The notes under the pieces are model-generated. The model ran no database searches, was not told where the DNA came from, and saw nothing but the letters and a program-made list of their open reading frames with translations. From Acidobacteria bacterium RIFCSPLOWO2_12_FULL_66_21 (GTDB lineage: Bacteria > Acidobacteriota > Vicinamibacteria > Vicinamibacterales > 2-12-FULL-66-21), in contig MELC01000022.1 of NCBI GenBank assembly GCA_001767455.1, positions 80,023-120,244 of the forward strand: DNA of 40,222 nt, written 5' to 3'. Shown in pieces: positions 18,048-35,843 of the stretch; position 1 is the stretch's first letter; each line of letters starts with the position of its first letter. A program made the translations under genes and the position numbers.

Positions 18048-18638
18048 ATGCTCGAGATCATCGCGGTCGCCTTCGGTCTTGCCAACATCTACCTGACCGT
18101 CCGCCAGAACATCTGGTGCTGGCCGGTCGGCGTGGTGATGGTGTCGCTCTACATTTACATCTTCTTCGGCGCGCGCCTGTATTCCGACGCGCTCCTCAAC
18201 GTCTTCTTTCTCGTGATGCAGTTCTACGGCTGGTACTGGTGGACGCGCAAGCCGACCGTGCACGCCAAGTCGCAGGTCGAGATCCACAAGCTGCACGCGC
18301 GCGGTATCGCGCTGACCGCGGCCGGCGTCATCGCGGGCGCCGCGGTGCTCGGGACGACCATGCACCGGCTCACCGACGCGTCGCTCCCCTACTACGACGC
18401 GACGACGACGATGCTGAGCGTGTTCGCGCAGTTCCTGCTGACGCGGAAGATCATCGACAACTGGACGCTGTGGATCATCGCCGACGTAATCTACATCGCG
18501 ATGTACGCCGTGAAGCACCTGTACTGGACGAGCGGCCTCTACGTCGTCTTCCTGATCCTGTGCATCGAGGGCTATCGCGAGTGGCGGCGCGACCATGTCG
18601 CGGGAGAGCATGGGGTTGTCGGAGGTCACGGACCATAA
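18048..18638 (+). CDS. pnuC: PnuC-like nicotinamide riboside transporter
   Basis: A 196-residue inner-membrane protein with about seven membrane segments and PnuC hallmarks: an N-terminal NIYLTVRQNIWCWPVGVV block (W-x-x-G substrate region), FYGWYWW, and the C-terminal QFLLTRKIIDNWTLWIIADV. It would carry nicotinamide riboside by facilitated diffusion, trapped by phosphorylation. No NadR kinase is nearby. It sits 6 nt after the amidase stop. Its own TAA (18636-18638) abuts the left arm of a long nested inverted repeat. Confidence 0.93.
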   Translation: MLEIIAVAFGLANIYLTVRQNIWCWPVGVVMVSLYIYIFFGARLYSDALLNVFFLVMQFYGWYWWTRKPTVHAKSQVEIHKLHARGIALTAAGVIAGAAVLGTTMHRLTDASLPYYDATTTMLSVFAQFLLTRKIIDNWTLWIIADVIYIAMYAVKHLYWTSGLYVVFLILCIEGYREWRRDHVAGEHGVVGGHGP

Positions 18639-18913
18639 CACGGAGGCACGGAGGCCACGGGGACGCGCGGAGAAGACAGCTCACGAGCACCGGTTGCCGC
18701 ACTGGGGATGATACCGGTCTGGCGCCGGCCGGACAAAATCTTCGGCCGGCATTCGAGATGATCTGAGATCCACAGATGCAAGCACGCGGCGCACATGGCG
18801 TGCTTGCATCTGTGGATCTCAGATCATCTCACCGCGCGTAGCGCGGCCAGACCGTCGGAGCCGACGAGCGTCACACAGCTCCGTGCGTCCCCGTGTGCTC
18901 CGTGCCTCCGTGT
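18638..18913. repeat. Nested inverted-repeat element between convergent genes
   Basis: Three nested pairs of arms fill this space. The outer arms (18638-18672 and 18879-18913) are 35 nt with 3 mismatches and carry the CACGGAGG word. The middle arms (18715-18723 and 18846-18854) are a perfect 9 nt. The inner arms (18755-18787 and 18798-18830) are a perfect 33-nt match around a 10-nt loop. A side hairpin, GCCGGCCG 18724-18731 with CGGCCGGC 18743-18750, is also present. The outer arms abut both neighbouring stop codons. It could be a transcribed structured element, a strong two-way terminator, or a MITE-like palindrome. No target duplication is evident. Confidence 0.85.
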
Positions 18914-18917
18914 GAGG

Positions 18918-20372
18918 TTACCGGGCGCCCTCCGTCTTCCCCGCGCCCTCGGTCTGCCGTTTGAAGCGCAGGTCGAAGACGCGCTCCTGGGTGACGCCCA
19001 GCTCCGTCACGCGCCCGCCGGCACGGTGGAAGCGGATCGTGCCGAGGCCGCCGGCCGAGAACGCATCTTCCGTCGTCGGACGCAGCGTGAGCTTGGTTGC
19101 GGGCCGGCGCTTCAGGACGAGCGATTCTCCTTCGACCGCGATCGTCAACACCGTCTCGGCTTCATCGCTCGCGTAGGTGCCGGCGAACGCCGCGAGGTCC
19201 GCGGCGGTCGGGTGGAAGGTCTGGGGAGGCGGCTGGCGCCGCGGCGGCGCCTCCGCTGTCGTCGTACTGATGGCGCTTCCGAGATAGAGATCCGCCACTG
19301 CACGCGCGTACTGCGTGGCGGCGCCGCTGCTCACGTTGCACAGGACCGCGACCGACACCCGCCGATCGGGATACCGCACCAGGTGCGCACGGTAGCCGGC
19401 CGTCGATCCACTGTGCCCGACTTCGCGCACGCCCTTGTACTGCCCGACCATCAGCCCGAGCGCGTAGCTGCCGGGCTTGCCGTCGTTGAACTTGCCCGGT
19501 TCCTGCTGCCGTGCGACGAACGCGGCGTCGCCGACCTTCGGGCTCTCGAAGTTCTCGTTCCAGAGCAGCAGATCGCCGACCGTGGTCAGCAGCCCGCCGT
19601 TGCCGTGCACGTTCTCGAACGGCATCGCCTGCGAGTAGCCGGACGCGTCGCTCCGGTATGCTATCGCACGGTGCTTGACGATGCGGGTGAAGTCGTCGCG
19701 CCAGGACGTGTGCGTCATGCCGAGCGGCTTGAACAGGCGCTCCTGGCAGAACTCCGCGAAGCTCTTCCCGCTCAACCGCGACACCATGATCGCCGCCAGG
19801 TTGTACCCGGAGTTGCTGTACGAATACTGCGTTCCGGGCGTGAAGTTGAGCGCCTTCTGGCGGCTGACGATGTCGAGCACGTGCGCGTGGGTGTAGACGC
19901 GCGTCGTCCGCGGCCAGCCCGCGATGGCCTCGACCGAGCCCCAGTCGCGCAGGCCGCTCATGTGGTTCAGCATGTGGCGGACGAGCAGCGGCGATCCGTA
20001 GTCGGGCAGCTCCGGGATGTGCTTGCGGACCGGATCGTCGAGCGAGAGCTTGCCCTCGCGCACGAGCAGGAGCAGGGCGGCGGCGGTGAACTGTTTCGAG
20101 ACCGAGCCGGCCTCGAAGATCGTGTCCGGCGTGTTCGGGGCGTCGTGCTCGAGATCGGCCATGCCGTAGGCCTTCTGCAGCACGCCCTGCCCACCCACGC
20201 CCACACCCACGGCGCACCCAGGGGTCTGCCCGTTCCAGCGTGCAAAGACCTGGTCGACCTTCGTTTCGAGCGACGCGGCCGGCGCCTGCGCGCCAGCGAC
20301 GCGCCCCGCGGCGCCGCCGGCGAAAGACAGTGCAAGACAGAGGAACGTCAAGAGAAGGCGTCGGGATTTCAT
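18918..20372 (-). CDS. Class C beta-lactamase-family serine hydrolase
   Basis: A 484-residue secreted protein of the beta-lactamase/D-Ala-D-Ala-carboxypeptidase/esterase superfamily. The signal peptide covers about residues 1-29. Motifs are S90-V-S-K93 (catalytic SxxK), Y186-S-N188 (YxN) and H321-S-G323 in place of KTG. A C-terminal lipocalin-like beta domain of about 90 residues follows (AFAGTYASDEAETVLTIAV). The HSG box is more usual in peptidases/esterases of the family, so beta-lactam resistance should not be assumed. TATCAT ends 8 nt before the ATG and there is no Shine-Dalgarno sequence. Confidence 0.88.
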   Translation of the reverse strand: MKSRRLLLTFLCLALSFAGGAAGRVAGAQAPAASLETKVDQVFARWNGQTPGCAVGVGVGGQGVLQKAYGMADLEHDAPNTPDTIFEAGSVSKQFTAAALLLLVREGKLSLDDPVRKHIPELPDYGSPLLVRHMLNHMSGLRDWGSVEAIAGWPRTTRVYTHAHVLDIVSRQKALNFTPGTQYSYSNSGYNLAAIMVSRLSGKSFAEFCQERLFKPLGMTHTSWRDDFTRIVKHRAIAYRSDASGYSQAMPFENVHGNGGLLTTVGDLLLWNENFESPKVGDAAFVARQQEPGKFNDGKPGSYALGLMVGQYKGVREVGHSGSTAGYRAHLVRYPDRRVSVAVLCNVSSGAATQYARAVADLYLGSAISTTTAEAPPRRQPPPQTFHPTAADLAAFAGTYASDEAETVLTIAVEGESLVLKRRPATKLTLRPTTEDAFSAGGLGTIRFHRAGGRVTELGVTQERVFDLRFKRQTEGAGKTEGAR

Positions 20373-20380
20373 GATCGCGG

Positions 20381-20386
20381 ATGATA
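20381..20386 (-). promoter_or_regulatory. Candidate extended -10, serine hydrolase gene
   Basis: TGCTATCAT on the minus strand has a TGn extension and ends 8 nt before the ATG at 20372, with no ribosome binding site, consistent with a leaderless mRNA. Confidence 0.4.
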
Positions 20387-20397
20387 GCAAACAAGAC

Positions 20398-20425
20398 GGT
20401 TCTTGGTTATCGGTTTTGGTGGTTG
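20398..20425. repeat. Short degenerate heptamer array, GGTTNTN type
   Basis: GGTTCTT, GGTTATC, GGTTTTG and GTGGTTG follow one another in register between two divergent genes. It is short and degenerate, so weak alone. Confidence 0.4.
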
Positions 20426-20504
20426 GTTTCGAGTTGTAGATTTCGCGTTGGACGTGCAAGCGCGCTTGTCGTCGCCCTGGAGCGGATGCACAATAGGGCG
20501 AACG

Positions 20505-21179
20505 ATGCGCCGCATCCCCGCCGTCCTGACGGTGCTGGCCTTCAGCGCGCCATTCTCCCCTGAGGGGCAGGCCATCCCCATCGCGCGGGCGCCCGCGGCG
20601 GTCCGGCCGTTCATCCAGCGCGCCGACGCGGCGTTCACGCGGATTCGATCGGCGCACCTGACGGAGCTCGCCGGCACGATGCGCGCCAACGGTGCCGCCG
20701 GCGCGATCGGCGTGTGCCATCTGTCTTCGGCCGCCGTCATGGATCGGATCAGACGGGAGGAACAGATCGCCGTCGGGTGGACGAGCGATCGCCTGCGGAA
20801 TCCCACCAGCACGCCGCCCGCGTGGGCAGCGCCCATCGTCAGGCAGAAAGCGGGAGCACGCGCCGCGTCGGTAAGCGGTTTCTACGTGGATCTGGGCGAT
20901 CGCGTGGGCGTGCTCCGTCCGATGCCCGAAGTGGCGCTGTGCGCCGGCTGTCATGGGCCGGCGGACAAGCTCTCGCCAGGTGTGCGGGCGGTGCTGAAGG
21001 ATCGGTACCCCGCGGACCGCGCCATCAACTTCAAGGACGGCGAGATCCGCGGCTGGCTCTGGGCGGAAATATGGAAGGTAGAACGTAGAAGGCAGGTCTA
21101 CCTTCTACCTTGCGAACTGGATCGAGCCCGCAATCCTCCGGAAGACCGGCTCGTACTGCCGGAACTCCTCGTCTGGTGA
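20505..21179 (+). CDS. Exported DUF3365-like haem-binding protein with altered C-terminus
   Basis: A 224-residue frame from ATG 20505 with a signal peptide (about 1-20). It continues as a Tll0287/DUF3365-like sensor domain: GAIGVCHLSS, then a YVDLGDRVGVLRPM core, and a single c-type haem site CAGCH. The natural end appears to be near WLWAEIWK. The frame then runs without a stop through a GTAGAAGG/CCTTCTAC inverted repeat and 75 nt of antisense of the M48 gene, adding about 26 unrelated residues. So the repeat seems to have removed the original stop. Redox sensing or electron transfer is inferred from the family. Confidence 0.7.
   Translation: MRRIPAVLTVLAFSAPFSPEGQAIPIARAPAAVRPFIQRADAAFTRIRSAHLTELAGTMRANGAAGAIGVCHLSSAAVMDRIRREEQIAVGWTSDRLRNPTSTPPAWAAPIVRQKAGARAASVSGFYVDLGDRVGVLRPMPEVALCAGCHGPADKLSPGVRAVLKDRYPADRAINFKDGEIRGWLWAEIWKVERRRQVYLLPCELDRARNPPEDRLVLPELLVW
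21075..21111. repeat. Inverted repeat between convergent genes, TAGAAGG words
   Basis: AAGGTAGAA (21075-21083) pairs with TTCTACCTT (21103-21111), and GTAGAAGG (21085-21092) with CCTTCTAC (21101-21108). The M48 stop codon TAG (21107-21105) lies inside the right arm. It may act as a terminator; there is no T-run. Confidence 0.7.
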
Positions 21180-24419: not shown

Positions 24420-24421
24420 TC

Positions 24422-24538
24422 GCAGCTCGCAGTTCGCAGCTCGCAGTTCGCAGTTCGCGGCTCGCAGTTCGCAGTTCGCAGCTCGCGGCTCGCAGTCGCA
24501 GTTCGCAGCTCGCGGCTCGCAGTCGCAGTTCGCAGCTC
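24422..24538. repeat. Heptamer tandem array GCAGTTC / GCAGCTC / GCGGCTC
   Basis: Seventeen consecutive units: fifteen heptamers of the form GC(A/G)G(T/C)TC and two 6-nt GCAGTC units, with no other bases between them. It fills nearly all the space between the divergent galactokinase and amidohydrolase genes. The sub-pattern GCGGCTC, GCAGTC, GCAGTTC, GCAGCTC occurs twice, showing duplication of a longer block. Confidence 0.95.
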
Positions 24539-24552
24539 GCACCTGGGGGCGC

Positions 24553-26838: not shown

Positions 26839-26989
26839 AATTCCAAACTCCAAAGTCCAGACTCCAAAGGCACTCCAAACGGCAAACTCGAAACAACTCC
26901 AAACGACCTTCGGAGTTTGGAGTTTGGAGTCCGTTTGGAGTTTGGAGTTTGGAGTCCCTTTGGAATTTGGAATTTGGAATTTGGAGTTG
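26839..26989. repeat. Facing heptamer arrays CCAAACT / AGTTTGG
   Basis: The left half (26839-26907) is a degenerate run of CTCCAAA-type words. The right half (26912-26989) is a cleaner run of GGAGTTT heptamers that changes to GGAATTT near its end. The right half is the reverse complement in type, so the whole can fold as one long imperfect hairpin around CGACCTTCGG. No gene is present here. Confidence 0.9.
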
Positions 26990-27962: not shown

Positions 27963-30449
27963 ATGAGACACATCGCCGGTTGTGGCCTTGCCCTGCTCGG
28001 TGCGGTCGCGATGCTGGTGGACGTTGATGCCGTCACGCGCGTGCCCTCCGCTGACGGGCAGTTCTGGGACATTCAGGACACCTCCGCGTGGGCGCAGGAC
28101 AGCGGCGGCATCGCGACCGGCGGCCGCGCCTATCCGTTCAACGGCTTCGGGTATCTGAGAATCCAGATCCGGCGCGGAACCAACGCGCCGCTGCTGCGGA
28201 ACCACTATCTTCGCGGGTTCGGCCTCGCCTATGACGGCACCGCTGATCGGTTCGACTCCATCACGCCTGTTCTGAACGACGGGGTGCTGGTCGCGCGCGC
28301 GATTTTCGCGCCGCGCGACACGAGCTACCTGCGGTACTTCGACTCGTTCACCAACACCTCGGCCGAGGAGCGCGGCGTCGAAGTCGCCTGGGGCGGCGCC
28401 GCCGGCGCGTTCGAGGACGGAGGGAAGATCGCCGTCGCGATGACCTCGAACGGGGATCGACGCATCGATCTGGCGGACAGCTACGTGACCGTGATGCAGA
28501 ACGCGCGGAACGTGGCCGATCCGATGATCGGCCCGTCCGGGCACGGGCCTTCGGCGCACGTCCTCGGCTCGAAGACGGCGGGTCTGCTCGCCTCCGTCGG
28601 CGACATGTACGCGGATCCGTTCACCGACAGGTGGCCGGGCTTCGATCCCGCGCACATCGGATATGTCTTCAGGCTGCGGCTGCGGCCCGGCCAGACCGCG
28701 GCGCTCGTGACGTTCGTGGTGAAGGGGCTCAGTGAGGTGTACGACCCGCGCGGCGGGTTTCCGATCGCGGTGAAGGACGGGCTGATTGGTGGAGAGTCCG
28801 TGTACTCGGGCGCGGATGCGAAGATCCCGCCCCCGGGATCCGAGATTGCGCGCGTGACCGACGTCGCGCGGCAACTCGTGAAGAGTCCGGACCTGCGCGG
28901 CCTGACGCCACGGCAGCGCGCGCAGATCGTCAACTGGAGCCTGCCGCCCGACGGCCACCCCAGGCCGTTCACGGTTGTCGAGAAGACCGTCACCGATCTC
29001 CAGGACGCCATGACGCGCGGCGAGGTCACCTCCGAGGATATCGTCCGCGAATACCTCGCGCGACTGTCGCTGTTCGACCGGAACGGGCCGACCTACCTCG
29101 CGCTGCTCTCGCTGAACCCGCACGCCCTTGCCGACGCGCGCGCGATGGACGCGGAGCGCGCGGCGGGCCACGTGCGCGGACCGTTCCACGGCGTGCCGGT
29201 CGTGTTCAAGGACAACATCGACGCCATCGAGCTGCCTACCACGGGAGGGGCGCGCGCACTCGTCGATCACCGCCCGCGCCTCGATTCGCACATTGCCGCA
29301 GGGATGCGGCGCGGCGGCGCCATCGTCCTCGGCAAGGCCAACCTGGACGAGTTCCCGTTCGGAGACTTCGGGATCAGCACCGTCGGCGGCACGATTGGCA
29401 ACGCCTACGATCCATCGCTCAGCACGGCTGGATCGAGCGGGGGGAGCGCGACCGCGGTGTCCACCAGCATGGCCGCGCTCGGGTTCGGCACGGACACCTG
29501 CAACTCGTTGTCGAACCCGGCGGCATTCGCGTCGCTCGCGACGATTCGCGCGACCCTGGGGCTCAACAGCCGCGCGGGCGTGATGCCGCTCAATACGTTC
29601 AACGACGCCGTGGGACCGATGGGACGAACCGTGCGCGACGTCGCGCTCGCGCTCGATTGGGTCGTTGGAACCGATCCTGAAGATCCCTTCACGACGGACG
29701 CGGCTGCTCACATCAACGGCTCGTTCGCGCAAGGACTGGACGGGGCGACGCTGAAGGGCAAGCGCGTCGGACTCTTGCGGCAGCGGTTCATCGGCATCAC
29801 GGGCGAGCGCGAGATCGCGGACGCGATGGAACGCGTGGTCAAGGAGTTCCAGGCAGCGGGCGCCATTGTCGTCGATGTCGCCATTCCGGATTACGACGCG
29901 AAGTACCGCGCGGTGCGTGGCAGCGCGCCAGGATCGCTCAAAGCGGCGTGGACCGCGTATCTCGCTCGAGGGGCGAAGCCGGGCGACAAAGTCCTGACGA
30001 TCGAGGACCTGCTCGCGTCAGGAAAACTGGCGCCAATCGGCGCGCGTCGATTCGAGGATGCGCTCAGGCCGACCGCGACCGGCGCGGCGCTTGACGAAGC
30101 CGTCAAGCGCTTCTATGCGGGCCGCGAGGGGTTCCGCCAGATCTTCGTGGACCTGATGGAACAGCAGCATCTCGACGCGATCCTCTACCCTGCCAACCAG
30201 GCCCGGCCGCACACGCACGAGGGCGGACTCGAACGCTACGGCGGCGAGCCCGGCACATGCGTGGAGAGCGCGGCCACTGGTCTGCCGCAGGTGACCGTGC
30301 CCGCTGGCTTCATCGGCGGGCGCTATCCCGTCGGCATCTCGCTGCTCGGTCGAATGTGGGATGACCGCCGCCTGCTGGAAATGGCCGCCGCCTACGAGCG
30401 CGCCACGCACTACCGGCGCCCTCCGCAGATAGTAGGCAGTAAGCAGTAG
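27963..30449 (+). CDS. Large secreted amidase with N-terminal beta-sandwich domain
   Basis: An 828-residue protein. A signal peptide (about 1-23) is followed by about 300 residues of beta-rich sequence (FWDIQDTSAWAQDSGGIATG, YLRYFDSFTNTSAEERGV) that I do not recognise, then an amidase-signature domain (about 340-820). The triad is K416 (VVFKDNID), cis-Ser S491/S492 (AGSSGGSATA) and nucleophile S515 (DTCNSLSNP). Usual amidases are 450-550 residues, so the N-terminal extension is the novelty; it could bind a polymer or the cell wall. AGGA lies 9 nt before ATG 27963. The last codons and the TAG stop are supplied by AGTAGGC heptamers. Confidence 0.9.
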   Translation: MRHIAGCGLALLGAVAMLVDVDAVTRVPSADGQFWDIQDTSAWAQDSGGIATGGRAYPFNGFGYLRIQIRRGTNAPLLRNHYLRGFGLAYDGTADRFDSITPVLNDGVLVARAIFAPRDTSYLRYFDSFTNTSAEERGVEVAWGGAAGAFEDGGKIAVAMTSNGDRRIDLADSYVTVMQNARNVADPMIGPSGHGPSAHVLGSKTAGLLASVGDMYADPFTDRWPGFDPAHIGYVFRLRLRPGQTAALVTFVVKGLSEVYDPRGGFPIAVKDGLIGGESVYSGADAKIPPPGSEIARVTDVARQLVKSPDLRGLTPRQRAQIVNWSLPPDGHPRPFTVVEKTVTDLQDAMTRGEVTSEDIVREYLARLSLFDRNGPTYLALLSLNPHALADARAMDAERAAGHVRGPFHGVPVVFKDNIDAIELPTTGGARALVDHRPRLDSHIAAGMRRGGAIVLGKANLDEFPFGDFGISTVGGTIGNAYDPSLSTAGSSGGSATAVSTSMAALGFGTDTCNSLSNPAAFASLATIRATLGLNSRAGVMPLNTFNDAVGPMGRTVRDVALALDWVVGTDPEDPFTTDAAAHINGSFAQGLDGATLKGKRVGLLRQRFIGITGEREIADAMERVVKEFQAAGAIVVDVAIPDYDAKYRAVRGSAPGSLKAAWTAYLARGAKPGDKVLTIEDLLASGKLAPIGARRFEDALRPTATGAALDEAVKRFYAGREGFRQIFVDLMEQQHLDAILYPANQARPHTHEGGLERYGGEPGTCVESAATGLPQVTVPAGFIGGRYPVGISLLGRMWDDRRLLEMAAAYERATHYRRPPQIVGSKQ

Positions 30450-30462
30450 GCAGTAGGCAGTG
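30431..30462. repeat. Heptamer array AGTAGGC at the amidase stop codon
   Basis: AGTAGGC, AGTAAGC, AGTAGGC, AGTAGGC in register. The stop TAG of the large amidase (30447-30449) is inside the third unit. It is the inverse of the CTGCCTG array beginning 53 nt downstream. Confidence 0.9.
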
Positions 30463-30497
30463 GATCACGCTGTCACGCTGAATCGACTCACAGCTTG

Positions 30498-30522
30498 ACA
30501 GCTCGACTCGCTGTCTACTGCC
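30498..30522 (+). repeat. 25-nt lead-in element, copy 1
   Basis: ACAGCTCGACTC, one variable base, CTG, one variable base, CTACTGCC. It matches 32375-32399 at 23 of 25 positions. Both copies sit exactly at the left edge of a heptamer array. Confidence 0.75.
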
Positions 30523-30626
30523 CGCTGCCTGCTGCCTGCTGCCCGCTGCCCGCTGCCTGCTGCCTGCTGCCCGCTGCCTGCTGCCTGCTGCCCGCTGCCC
30601 GCTGCCTGCTGCCTGCTGCCTGCTGC
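30515..30626. repeat. Heptamer array CTGCTGC / CCGCTGC
   Basis: Sixteen perfect-length heptamers: one CTACTGC, then nine CTGCTGC and six CCGCTGC in an irregular alternation. The array ends 10 nt before the promoter-like GATAAT of the RHH/MazF module, so it provides that promoter's upstream DNA. Confidence 0.95.
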
Positions 30627-30635
30627 CTGTATGGT

Positions 30636-33762: not shown

Positions 33763-33810
33763 CCGCGGCCGCTGGTAGCGCAGGCCTTCGGGCCTGCCAA
33801 ACGGCCGCGG
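33763..33810. repeat. Inverted-orientation hairpin module
   Basis: CCGCGGCCG (33763-33771) and CGGCCGCGG (33802-33810) are perfect inverted arms. Inside them GGTAGCGCAGGCCTTCGGGC begins a module that is the reverse-complement type of the 34-bp units that follow. Confidence 0.7.
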
Positions 33811-33910
33811 GCAGCCCTAAAGGGCTGCGCTACCACCTCAAAGGGCAGCCCTAAAGGGCTGCGCTACCACCTCAAAGGGCAGCCCTAAAGGGCTGCGCTA
33901 CCACCTCAAA
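33809..33910. repeat. Three tandem 34-bp hairpin repeats
   Basis: Three identical 34-bp units (33809-33842, 33843-33876, 33877-33910), each containing GCAGCCCTAAAGGGCTGC, a perfect 7-bp stem, followed by GCTACCACCTCAAA. The third unit overlaps the end of the amidase gene and contains its stop codon (TAG, 33900-33898). Confidence 0.95.
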
Positions 33911-35619
33911 GGCGGCACGCGGCGTCTGGTGGCCTGCTCGAAGGCGTACGCGATCTCGAGCAGGCGCGGCTCGCTGCAGGCCATCCCGGTGAAGCTCACG
34001 CCATACGGCGACGGCTTTGCTTTGAAGCCGGGCGGGAACGGCGGCGTGGGCGCGTTCGGCACCAGCGCGAACGGCACGATGACGGTCGGGTAGCCGGGCC
34101 GCGCGGCCAGCGCCGATCCGCTCGCGCCGGGAAACAGCAGCGCGTCGAGCCGCTCGGCCTTCATCACCTCGTCGATGCCGTGCGTCCCGCCGAGCGCGAT
34201 GTCCTTCGCGCGATCGGCCTCGTAGCGCGCGCGATCCTTCTCGACGTCCATCTCGTCCGAGATGTCGAGCTGCGACTGGCCGTACTTGATCGCGCCCGCG
34301 TTCTTGTGCGCGAGGTTCCATTCGCGCAGCTCCTTCAGCGTCTTGACCGGTGCGGACGGACCGAGCGACGCGAGCCACTTGTTGAAGTCCCGTTTCATCC
34401 CGTACTTCAGATCGACCGAGCAGTTCTCGTCCTTCCCTCTCGCGCTCTCCACGCCGGAACAGATCGCCCAGAGGACGAAGTTGTTCTTCGGATCCTTGTC
34501 CACGACGCTCGGAATGTTCGCCGGATCGACGATGACCGCGCCCTGTTCCTCGAGGACGCCAATCGCCTCAGCCATCGCTTTGGCCTGATCGCCGTTCAAG
34601 CCGCCGCGCGGACGATCCGAGCCGGGCACCGCCGTGCGCTCGTAGAAAAGCGCGCGCGGAATACCGATGCGCGCGCCTTTGAGTCCCTCGCGGCGCAGGA
34701 ACCTCGTGTAGTCGTGCCCCGGCGGGGGCGTGCACGTCGTGGTCGCCGGATCGTTCGGATCCGCGGCCCCTTCCAGCACCCCAAGCATGATGGCGGCGTC
34801 GGTGACCGTGCGTGCCATGGGTCCCGCCGTGTCCTGATCCGCCGTGATCGGAATCACGCCGTACCGGCTGATGCGACCGACGGTCGGCTTCACCGCCGCG
34901 AGCATGTTCTGGTTCGACGGGCTCAGGATCGATCCGGAGGTCTCGGTGCCGACGTTGGCGGCCCAGAAACTCGCCGACGTCCCGATGCCCGAGCTCGATC
35001 CGCCGGTCTGCATCGCGGGACGGCCGTCGAACGTCGCGTCGCGCGGATCGCGGCGCGGATCGTACGGGTTCATGCCGTAGCCCGCCACGGCGTTGTAGTT
35101 GCCGGGCATCGGCGTCGGCCCGCCCGCGACCCAGTTGGCCAGCTCCGTCATGCCGGTCTTCGCGATGATGATCGCGCCCGCCTCGCGCAGGTGCTTCGTG
35201 ATCGTCGCTTCGTACGGCGGCACGAAGCCGTCGAACACCAGCGCGCCGCCGGTGGTCGGCATGGTCGTCGTGTGGATGTTGTCCTTCAGCGCGACCGGAA
35301 TGCCGTGGAGCGGCCCGCGCGCCTTGCCCTGCGCGCGCTCGCGATCGCGTTCGTCGGCTTCCTTCAGCGCGTCCGGGTTCACCGTAATGACCGCGTGCAG
35401 CTTGTCCTCGTAGGTCGCGATGCGCACGAGCGATTGCACCACAATCTCGCGCGACGTCAGGCGGCCGCTCTTCATCGCGGCCTGCATCTCCGGAATCGTG
35501 GCCTCCACGACGGTGAACGGCACGCGCGGCGGCGGCGCGGGACGGATGGAGCGTTGCGCGCGCGGCGCGCCCGCGGCGACTGTCATGAAGAGGACCAGCA
35601 CAACCAGCAGGCGTTTCAT
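33898..35619 (-). CDS. Secreted amidase-signature enzyme
   Basis: A 573-residue amidase with signal peptide MKRLLVVLVLFMTVAAGAPR. The triad is K112 (ALKDNIH), the serine cluster S208-S210 (GGSSSGIGTS) and nucleophile S230 (TETSGSILSPS). It differs from the other two amidases here by a longer middle region (about 160-200) with NPYDPRRDPRDATFDG. The substrate is unknown. The TAG stop and the final PPLRW codons overlap the third 34-bp repeat. TGCTAATAT ends 7 nt before the ATG. Confidence 0.93.
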   Translation of the reverse strand: MKRLLVVLVLFMTVAAGAPRAQRSIRPAPPPRVPFTVVEATIPEMQAAMKSGRLTSREIVVQSLVRIATYEDKLHAVITVNPDALKEADERDRERAQGKARGPLHGIPVALKDNIHTTTMPTTGGALVFDGFVPPYEATITKHLREAGAIIIAKTGMTELANWVAGGPTPMPGNYNAVAGYGMNPYDPRRDPRDATFDGRPAMQTGGSSSGIGTSASFWAANVGTETSGSILSPSNQNMLAAVKPTVGRISRYGVIPITADQDTAGPMARTVTDAAIMLGVLEGAADPNDPATTTCTPPPGHDYTRFLRREGLKGARIGIPRALFYERTAVPGSDRPRGGLNGDQAKAMAEAIGVLEEQGAVIVDPANIPSVVDKDPKNNFVLWAICSGVESARGKDENCSVDLKYGMKRDFNKWLASLGPSAPVKTLKELREWNLAHKNAGAIKYGQSQLDISDEMDVEKDRARYEADRAKDIALGGTHGIDEVMKAERLDALLFPGASGSALAARPGYPTVIVPFALVPNAPTPPFPPGFKAKPSPYGVSFTGMACSEPRLLEIAYAFEQATRRRVPPLRW

Positions 35620-35632: not shown

Positions 35633-35740
35633 GCAGAGCCCCGATCTACGGCAGAGGCTGGGCCGACTCATCCGCGGGAAATCGTTGACTTGACGTGCCT
35701 CTGCTTCTTACCATGCCGGTCCCGGGACGGACAGCAATCG

Positions 35741-35819
35741 GCTGTCAGCTGTCAGCTATCAGCTGTCAGCTGAGAGGCGTGAAAGCTGAAAGCTGAAAGC
35801 TGAGAGCTGAGAGCTGAAA
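35741..35819. repeat. Two heptamer arrays GCTGTCA and GCTGAAA
   Basis: Units GCTGTCA, GCTGTCA, GCTATCA, GCTGTCA, GCTGAGA (35741-35775) are followed after 9 nt by GCTGAAA, GCTGAAA, GCTGAGA, GCTGAGA, GCTGAAA (35785-35819). The shared GCTGAGA suggests one word changed into the other. The array ends 13 nt before the AGGAAGG ribosome binding site of the oxidase gene. Confidence 0.9.
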
Positions 35820-35843
35820 GCCAAAAACTGAGAGAGGAAGGAC

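Follow-up and report, generated by a model that had tools for sequence, protein, structure and literature searches.

A dispersed intergenic repeat of an acidobacterial genome with a four-way-junction core conserved as base pairing across its order

Analysis of a 40,222-nucleotide stretch of DNA (the window; G000:C22:80023-120244) from Acidobacteria bacterium RIFCSPLOWO2_12_FULL_66_21, whose genome (G000) is a 6.48-Mb draft of 91 contigs, showed that a palindrome between two convergent genes is one copy of a dispersed, discrete element of about 345 bp. The core of this element is conserved as base pairing while its letters turn over, both within the genome and across the order Vicinamibacterales; each outer arm is constrained as sequence, without a pairing link to its partner arm. 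An initial annotation had described the locus as a nested inverted repeat, an observation that is right but too narrow. No description of the element was found in open-access full text, a scope outside which most subscription journals lie, and the finding of a structure-conserved repeat family not found described there stands. We tentatively read the family as mobile DNA.

The inverted repeat itself is real at 18638-18913 (276 bases), and the arms, loop and mismatches ascribed to it were all borne out. Its inner arms (18755-18787 and 18798-18830) are 33 nt long and 100% complementary, and they form a central hairpin around a 10-nt loop (18788-18797) that varies in sequence among copies. The 35-nt outer arms are 91% complementary, with 3 mismatches; the left one (18638-18672, + strand) carries CRCGGRG words at offsets 1, 9, 18, and 28, and the right one (18879-18913) carries the left-arm words on the - strand. 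Between these lie the 9-bp middle arms, CGGTCTGGC at 18715-18723 and GCCAGACCG at 18846-18854, which are the 5' and 3' sides of the mid stem. Beyond what had been annotated, the copy has two side hairpins, C (GCCGGCC...GGCCGGC, about 18724-18750) and A (CGCGC GTA GCGCG, about 18833-18845), and the word arrays run outward for about 36 nt into both reading frames, at 18602-18637 (+ strand) and 18914-18949 (- strand); there are also dozens of copies in the genome. The whole element spans 18602-18949, with approximate ends placed where homology between copies mostly stops, 25-39 nt beyond the ACACGGAG anchors, and where the density of CGGAG words drops. Its four-way-junction core (18713-18856) matches covariance model R1 with 150 bits on the - strand and 86 bits on the + strand, the window copy itself being among the sequences that build R1. 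Folding z-scores of -17.3 and -17.1 on the two strands, with 0 of 200 shuffles equally stable, together with terminal-pattern matches far above a backward control, rule out a chance palindrome. There were no terminator-like sites in 18400-19100 and no T tract after the window copy; on the - strand, this copy contains one promoter-like match (9 of 12).

The left neighbor is a pnuC-like gene (NMN_transporter; 18048-18638, + strand) and the right neighbor a beta-lactamase-like gene (18918-20954, - strand). The left arm begins on the last base of the pnuC-like stop codon, and the right arm stops 4 nt short of the beta-lactamase-like gene; both genes end within the element, whose outer word arrays (18602-18638 and 18918-18949) overlap their 3' ends and encode the final residues of both proteins. 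The relatives closest to the pnuC-like protein, four proteins at 70-75% identity (G002, G004, G009, and G010), terminate 2 to 15 residues past a GYREW/GYFEW motif, and the window protein has a further 18 residues, the last of which come from the outer words. The core model gave no convincing match at these four loci (best, 12.5 bits, E 0.36; G009 was covered by 215 nt downstream), and the element is absent directly downstream of pnuC in three of the four (G004, G009, and G010). At the fourth (G002:C320; L134 1-360), a short inverted CACGGAT-like word array without a core was seen by eye directly downstream of the pnuC relative, so that the site possibly held an array earlier. On these comparisons, the full element at the pnuC site is specific to the window's lineage, but a simpler word array may be older there than the full element.

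Searching the genome with the 276 bases as a DNA query returned 118 matching pieces, grouped into about 40 places, which rules out a single-copy reading. When up to 2 mismatches were allowed, the terminal pattern ACACGGAGGCACGGAG gave 44 forward and 49 reverse matches, compared with 2 and 4 for its backward control. Among 51 places examined in this genome, 37 hold two-ended copies, with the ends 88-281 bp apart, and 26 hold a complete core. In the best 40 copy pairs (71-87% identity), homology mostly stops within about 40 nt beyond the anchors (in L040, which has a longer array, it extends to 77 nt outside them), and the count of CGGAG words drops from 21 per 10-nt bin to 2 between -40 and -50 (the bins at -60 and -70 hold 8 and 7); from these homology ends and this fall in density we infer a unit of about 345 bp. 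A first scan of genome contigs with a central-stem pattern gave 0 matches, and CACGAAG words (5 and 2 matches; control, 3 and 0) revealed no second large family in this genome. In one rearranged or interrupted copy (L144 1660-5020; G000:C86:195675-199019), 3.3 kb of DNA with unrelated ORFs separates the two halves. In another (L054; G000:C72:19600-24244), a REP array of AGCCCTAAAGGGCC units, from about 2140, lies within the central part of the element.

Structural comparison was based on 27 complete cores (26 from this genome and 1 from G011, a relative within the same family whose element lies on a 5,417-base contig) out of 52 places, leaving aside L060 and places with a weak or no central hairpin. 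All 27 fold as a four-way junction, whose helices are the mid stem, hairpin A, a central hairpin of 72-81 nt, and hairpin C. The unpaired nucleotides between helices number exactly 0, 0-1, 3-4, and 0 in 14 of them (L038 and L053 are the largest exceptions), and hairpin A comes first on the locus + strand in 16 cores and second in 11. Alignment A1 is a plain one in which some mid stems are out of register; 93.9% of its 1470 cells pair, and changes on both sides are seen in 34 of 55 pairs, whereas shuffling gives 13.4 +- 2.3 (0 of 500 shuffles reach 34) and sliding the partners by 1-3 columns gives 9-14. Mid stems have been exchanged wholesale among copies (GGTCTGGC, GGCTGGCTGC, GGTCACGC, GGTCGCGC, CGGCCGCGGC, and GGCTCTCGC).

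The central stem combines near-strict pairing with a regular set of mismatches. Watson-Crick pairs fill 787 of 810 off-grid cells, and mismatches recur on a grid of three positions 10 bp apart (0-based positions 7, 17, and 27 from the base), which are mismatched in 10 (11 in the arm alignment), 17, and 26 of the 27 cores. All but one of the grid mismatches are A.C or G.T; on the A-first strand, position 27 is A.C in 16 cores and G.T in 9. Positions 20, 22, and 23 are mismatched in 0, 1, and 0 of 27 cores, whereas coupling is lost at positions 7 and 17. Part of the recurrence on the grid may be due to shared descent, although paired changes have built up around the grid positions; because shared descent can carry the mismatch at position 27, the proportion 26/27 is descriptive only. 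The window copy is the sole core matched at that position, and its perfect stem may stem from recent arm-to-arm copying. The initial annotation had taken its perfect arms to imply recent origin or selection; selection is upheld, but perfect arms are the exception, given the mismatch at position 27 in the other 26 cores.

The outer arms behave differently from the core. Across 74 arms (37 copies of the 51 places), the CRCGGRG words are nearly invariant at their four offsets, with six columns identical in 74 of 74, whereas linker columns 8, 16, and 17 are free to vary. Within-copy mismatches between the arms match the expectation for independent arms throughout columns 0-34 (all P above 0.1), with a mismatch excess at column -4, outside the arm (P 0.014); the binomial P values for the arms, like those for central-stem positions, treat copies as independent, which they are not. 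Because arm mismatches occur as in independent arms, the outer arms are evidently kept as sequence and not as a helix, and a maintained outer helix is not supported. A gapped test agrees: for the outer arms, complementarity within copies is not above that between copies (z -2.9 in this genome, 21 copies; z 0.7 in G004, 17 copies), but it is for the central stem, with z 8.4 and 9.6, respectively (in this genome, 21 of the 27 cores were used, with L034, L046, L049, L053, L055, and L089 left out). Although CACGGAGG presumably fits the CsrA motif CANGGANG, a CsrA sponge was set aside because the words point inward in both arms and relatives carry other words.

The outer arms had also been suggested to be related to tandem arrays elsewhere in the window; this did not hold, since those arrays do not have the CACGGAG word of the outer arms, though several are likewise inverted word arrays. 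Inverted pairs of heptamer-type arrays lie at 30431-30629 (AGTAGGC/GCTGCCT), 35732-35834 (GCTGTCA/TGAAAGC), and 26846-26988 (AACTCCA/TGGAGTT) and are perhaps core-less relatives in anatomy. A direct TCGCAGC-like heptamer array of about 17.7 copies (24420-24541) directly precedes a gene. Among 84,980 species genomes, four CACRGRG words in the 8-9-10 format were found in 9 stretches from the organisms of 7 records, namely, two Acidobacteria MAGs, members of the Thermoanaerobaculales, Bacteroidales, Ignavibacteriales, and Phycisphaerales, and the archaeon Methanothrix (MAG); all of these genomes are metagenome assembled, and single cases are possibly misbinned. At such loci outside G011, the core model matched L093 alone, and weakly (28 bits, E 0.0013). 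The arrays at L090-L098 are of CACAGAG/CACGGAG words in the same format, several of them as short inverted pairs.

Model R1 matched at least 16 of 162 genomes of the order at E <= 0.01, one of these matches (L213 in G117) looking false. It found at least 18 places in G004, at least 7 in G002, at least 4 in G075, at least 3 in G126, and at least 1-4 in others; the scan scored at most the best 19 candidates per genome, so that copy numbers and absences are bounds. Among the candidates scored, the near relatives G001, G007, G008, and G010 gave no match. Searched as DNA, the window copy had no match in G004 (best 12 of 78 candidates scored) and one weak match in G002. In a phylum sample of 396 genomes, scored for the best 8 candidates per genome, G000 and G036 alone among the matches listed reached E <= 1e-4, and both belong to this order, a result that speaks to specificity; that scan missed G026, which matched in the order-wide one. 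Forty loci were fetched, and the folds seen, L213 apart, have the same anatomy with other outer words (AACGAAGG, CGCAGAGG, CACACGGAGACACGGAG, CCACGAAAGACACGAAAG, and GCAGATTGCGCAGATG) and mostly unrelated core sequence; part of L189 and the folds to L197 were covered by their central hairpins and model matches. In 41 places (40 from the fetched loci, L213 left out, plus the one of G011), 94.2% of cells pair, against 63.8% after shuffling, and 54 of 55 pairs show both-side changes, which fill 631 cells where shuffling gives 170 +- 11, in an alignment (A2) that was fitted to the covariance model and leans to it. The mismatch grid is partly kept in the other genomes, where several stems lack all three mismatches, and an ACAARC motif near the central-stem apex looks semi-conserved by eye. 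The initial annotation had proposed searching for other copies and for compensatory changes in relatives, and would have abandoned a single copy without conservation; copies number in the dozens in this genome, compensatory changes are present both among them and in other genera, and the core is found across the order.

No gene encloses any of the 37 two-ended copies. Thirty-six of them are flanked by genes at both ends, as counted with a simple purpose-made gene caller: 17 lie in tandem, 11 in convergent, and 8 in divergent pairs. The convergent share exceeds that of other gene pairs in the same loci (17 of 166; P 0.003) and of other pairs with gaps of 100 or more (4 of 67; P 0.002). Gene 3' ends concentrate 20-45 nt from the anchors, and in tandem settings the A-first core strand agrees with gene direction in 7 of 10 cases. 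When 221 neighboring proteins were clustered, the largest cluster covered 5 loci. No transposase was recognized by eye among the clusters or between the halves of the split C86 copy, and no autonomous copy was seen in the 91-contig draft; there was no match in phages or plasmids. The longest flank match at copy ends was 5.08, against 4.79 +- 0.16 for shuffled pairs (37 copies), the ends being too blurred to place precisely.

The best single account of these results is a foldback element of about 345 bp, non-autonomous and probably mobile, with a structurally recognized DNA core. It rests on the dispersed copies with common homology ends, the paired core beside uncoupled arms, the strand symmetry described below, the patchy distribution in the order, the avoidance of gene interiors, and the three pnuC relatives without the element. 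The outer words would be double-stranded binding sites of a trans-acting protein, and the core would act as folded DNA, either as an extruded cruciform or as a hairpin on single-stranded DNA at the fork. A transposase or recombinase might recognize the shape of the core and copy the unit into intergenic sites; selection for shape at each round of copying would then produce covariation without sequence conservation, and the mismatches one helical turn apart could be enzyme contacts or could keep the hairpin imperfect and so uncut. Several points speak against mobility: no transposase recognized by eye beside copies, no autonomous copy seen in the draft, no clear target duplication, no phage or plasmid match, Y1 transposase genes that lack the core, copies that are not very recent, and the convergent excess, which a 3'-end function also predicts. 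We place this account just short of an even chance because neither an enzyme nor a clear target duplication was found and because G002 has a simpler, core-less array at the pnuC site. A farther-reaching form of the proposal, which we regard as possible but rather doubtful, is that what the mobile element passes on is a DNA shape, namely, a four-way junction whose mispaired positions lie one helical turn apart and both of whose strands are selected as folded DNA, and that helices and word arrays can be rewritten while the geometry stays; given the 8-9-10 arrays in other phyla and an archaeon, what is seen in this order may be the elaborate version of a far more widespread system.

The junction could alternatively function as structured RNA in transcripts arriving from either side, for example, as a bidirectional terminator, a 3'-end protector, or an RNase III site. 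The very stable fold on both strands, the covariation of the core, the convergent excess, and the concentration of gene 3' ends near the anchors are all in keeping with this. If one RNA strand were selected, however, G-U should be tolerated over A-C, and this is not what was found: G.T and A.C number 7 and 8 in the off-grid central stem and 4 and 4 in the mid stem of the own-genome set, and 49 and 52 in other genera. The helices thus covary as structured RNA would, but the expected preference for G-U is absent, and the near equality favors folded DNA or a both-strand process, although RNA of both strands, transcribed from the two sides, would suit the strand-symmetric mismatches too. The 8 of 36 copies between divergent genes, the mere 7 of 10 agreement with tandem genes, and the missing terminator-like T tract at the window copy also weigh against RNA, as does Rfam, in which the window had no family at the gathering score (11 loci of relatives gave sub-threshold microRNA-hairpin matches). 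We therefore consider an RNA function unlikely.

It is less likely still that the repeat is a chromosome-architecture element like BIMEs, kept by the host and immobile, in which a cruciform and words bound by host proteins (gyrase, HU, or similar) would manage supercoiling. Such a role would accommodate the strictly intergenic position of two-ended copies, the convergent excess, the combination of sequence-specific words with a structured core, and the strand symmetry, but it sits poorly with the patchy distribution, the different words of each genome, and the absence of the element at the site in three of four close pnuC relatives. A passive product of mutation, with palindromes made and perfected by template switching or arm-to-arm hairpin repair without selection for shape, is the least probable, since the near-strict Watson-Crick pairing, strand symmetry, perfect window stem, and short symmetric pieces left of the central hairpin in L057, L058, and L077 that favor it are outweighed by outer arms that are not homogenized, a dispersal and a two-side-hairpin junction that it leaves unexplained, and, within one stem, a mosaic of coupled positions (20, 22, and 23), uncoupled positions (7 and 17), and a mismatch at position 27 in 26 of 27 cores, which is at odds with arm homogenization alone because copying tracts would be continuous.

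If the mobile foldback reading is true, structure and not sequence is the inherited unit of this repeat, which sequence-based repeat finders miss between genera. The contrast between coupled core and uncoupled arms, taken with the comparison of G.T and A.C, provides a way to separate DNA-level from RNA-level selection in such repeats and a starting point in the search for an enzyme that recognizes folded DNA. Short inverted arrays of words, as found in many environmental genomes, may come under one anatomy.

Among known systems, intrinsic terminators differ in that the window copy has no T tract after its GC-rich stem. REP/BIME sequences with their RAYT transposases are likewise extragenic palindromes dispersed in many copies, but REP palindromes are only 20-40 bp long (PMC3733652), compared with about 345 bp here. 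The genome does hold a REP family with Y1 transposase genes (3 Y1_Tnp matches), which adjoin another repeat, GCAGCCCTAAAGGGCTGC; this REP flanks two of the three Y1 transposase (RAYT) genes (L100 and L101) and also makes up the tandem GCAGCCCTAAAGGGCTGC repeats at 33809-33912 of the window. Neither a CACGGAG array nor the core was found at the three Y1 genes (L101 has one isolated word, and the best R1 score there was 10.5 bits, E 0.89), and an identity of the element with the REP of the local Y1 transposases was ruled out accordingly. ERIC, NEMIS, and similar repeats are extragenic imperfect palindromes of 100-200 bp in tens of copies. They share this intergenic setting and copy number with the element but are known as sequence families, whereas here a DNA search misses G004, in which the structure model finds its places. 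Like MITEs, the element is a noncoding, discrete, dispersed unit with inverted terminal ends, and its inverted word-array arms recall foldback transposons, whose inverted arms are themselves built of short tandem words; it differs from both in that no autonomous partner or clear target duplication was found and in a core that covaries while its sequence turns over. In integron attC sites, the structure of folded single-stranded DNA with unpaired positions outweighs sequence. The element is dispersed among ordinary genes, unlike attC sites, and the likeness is a resemblance only, yet in both structure takes precedence over sequence.
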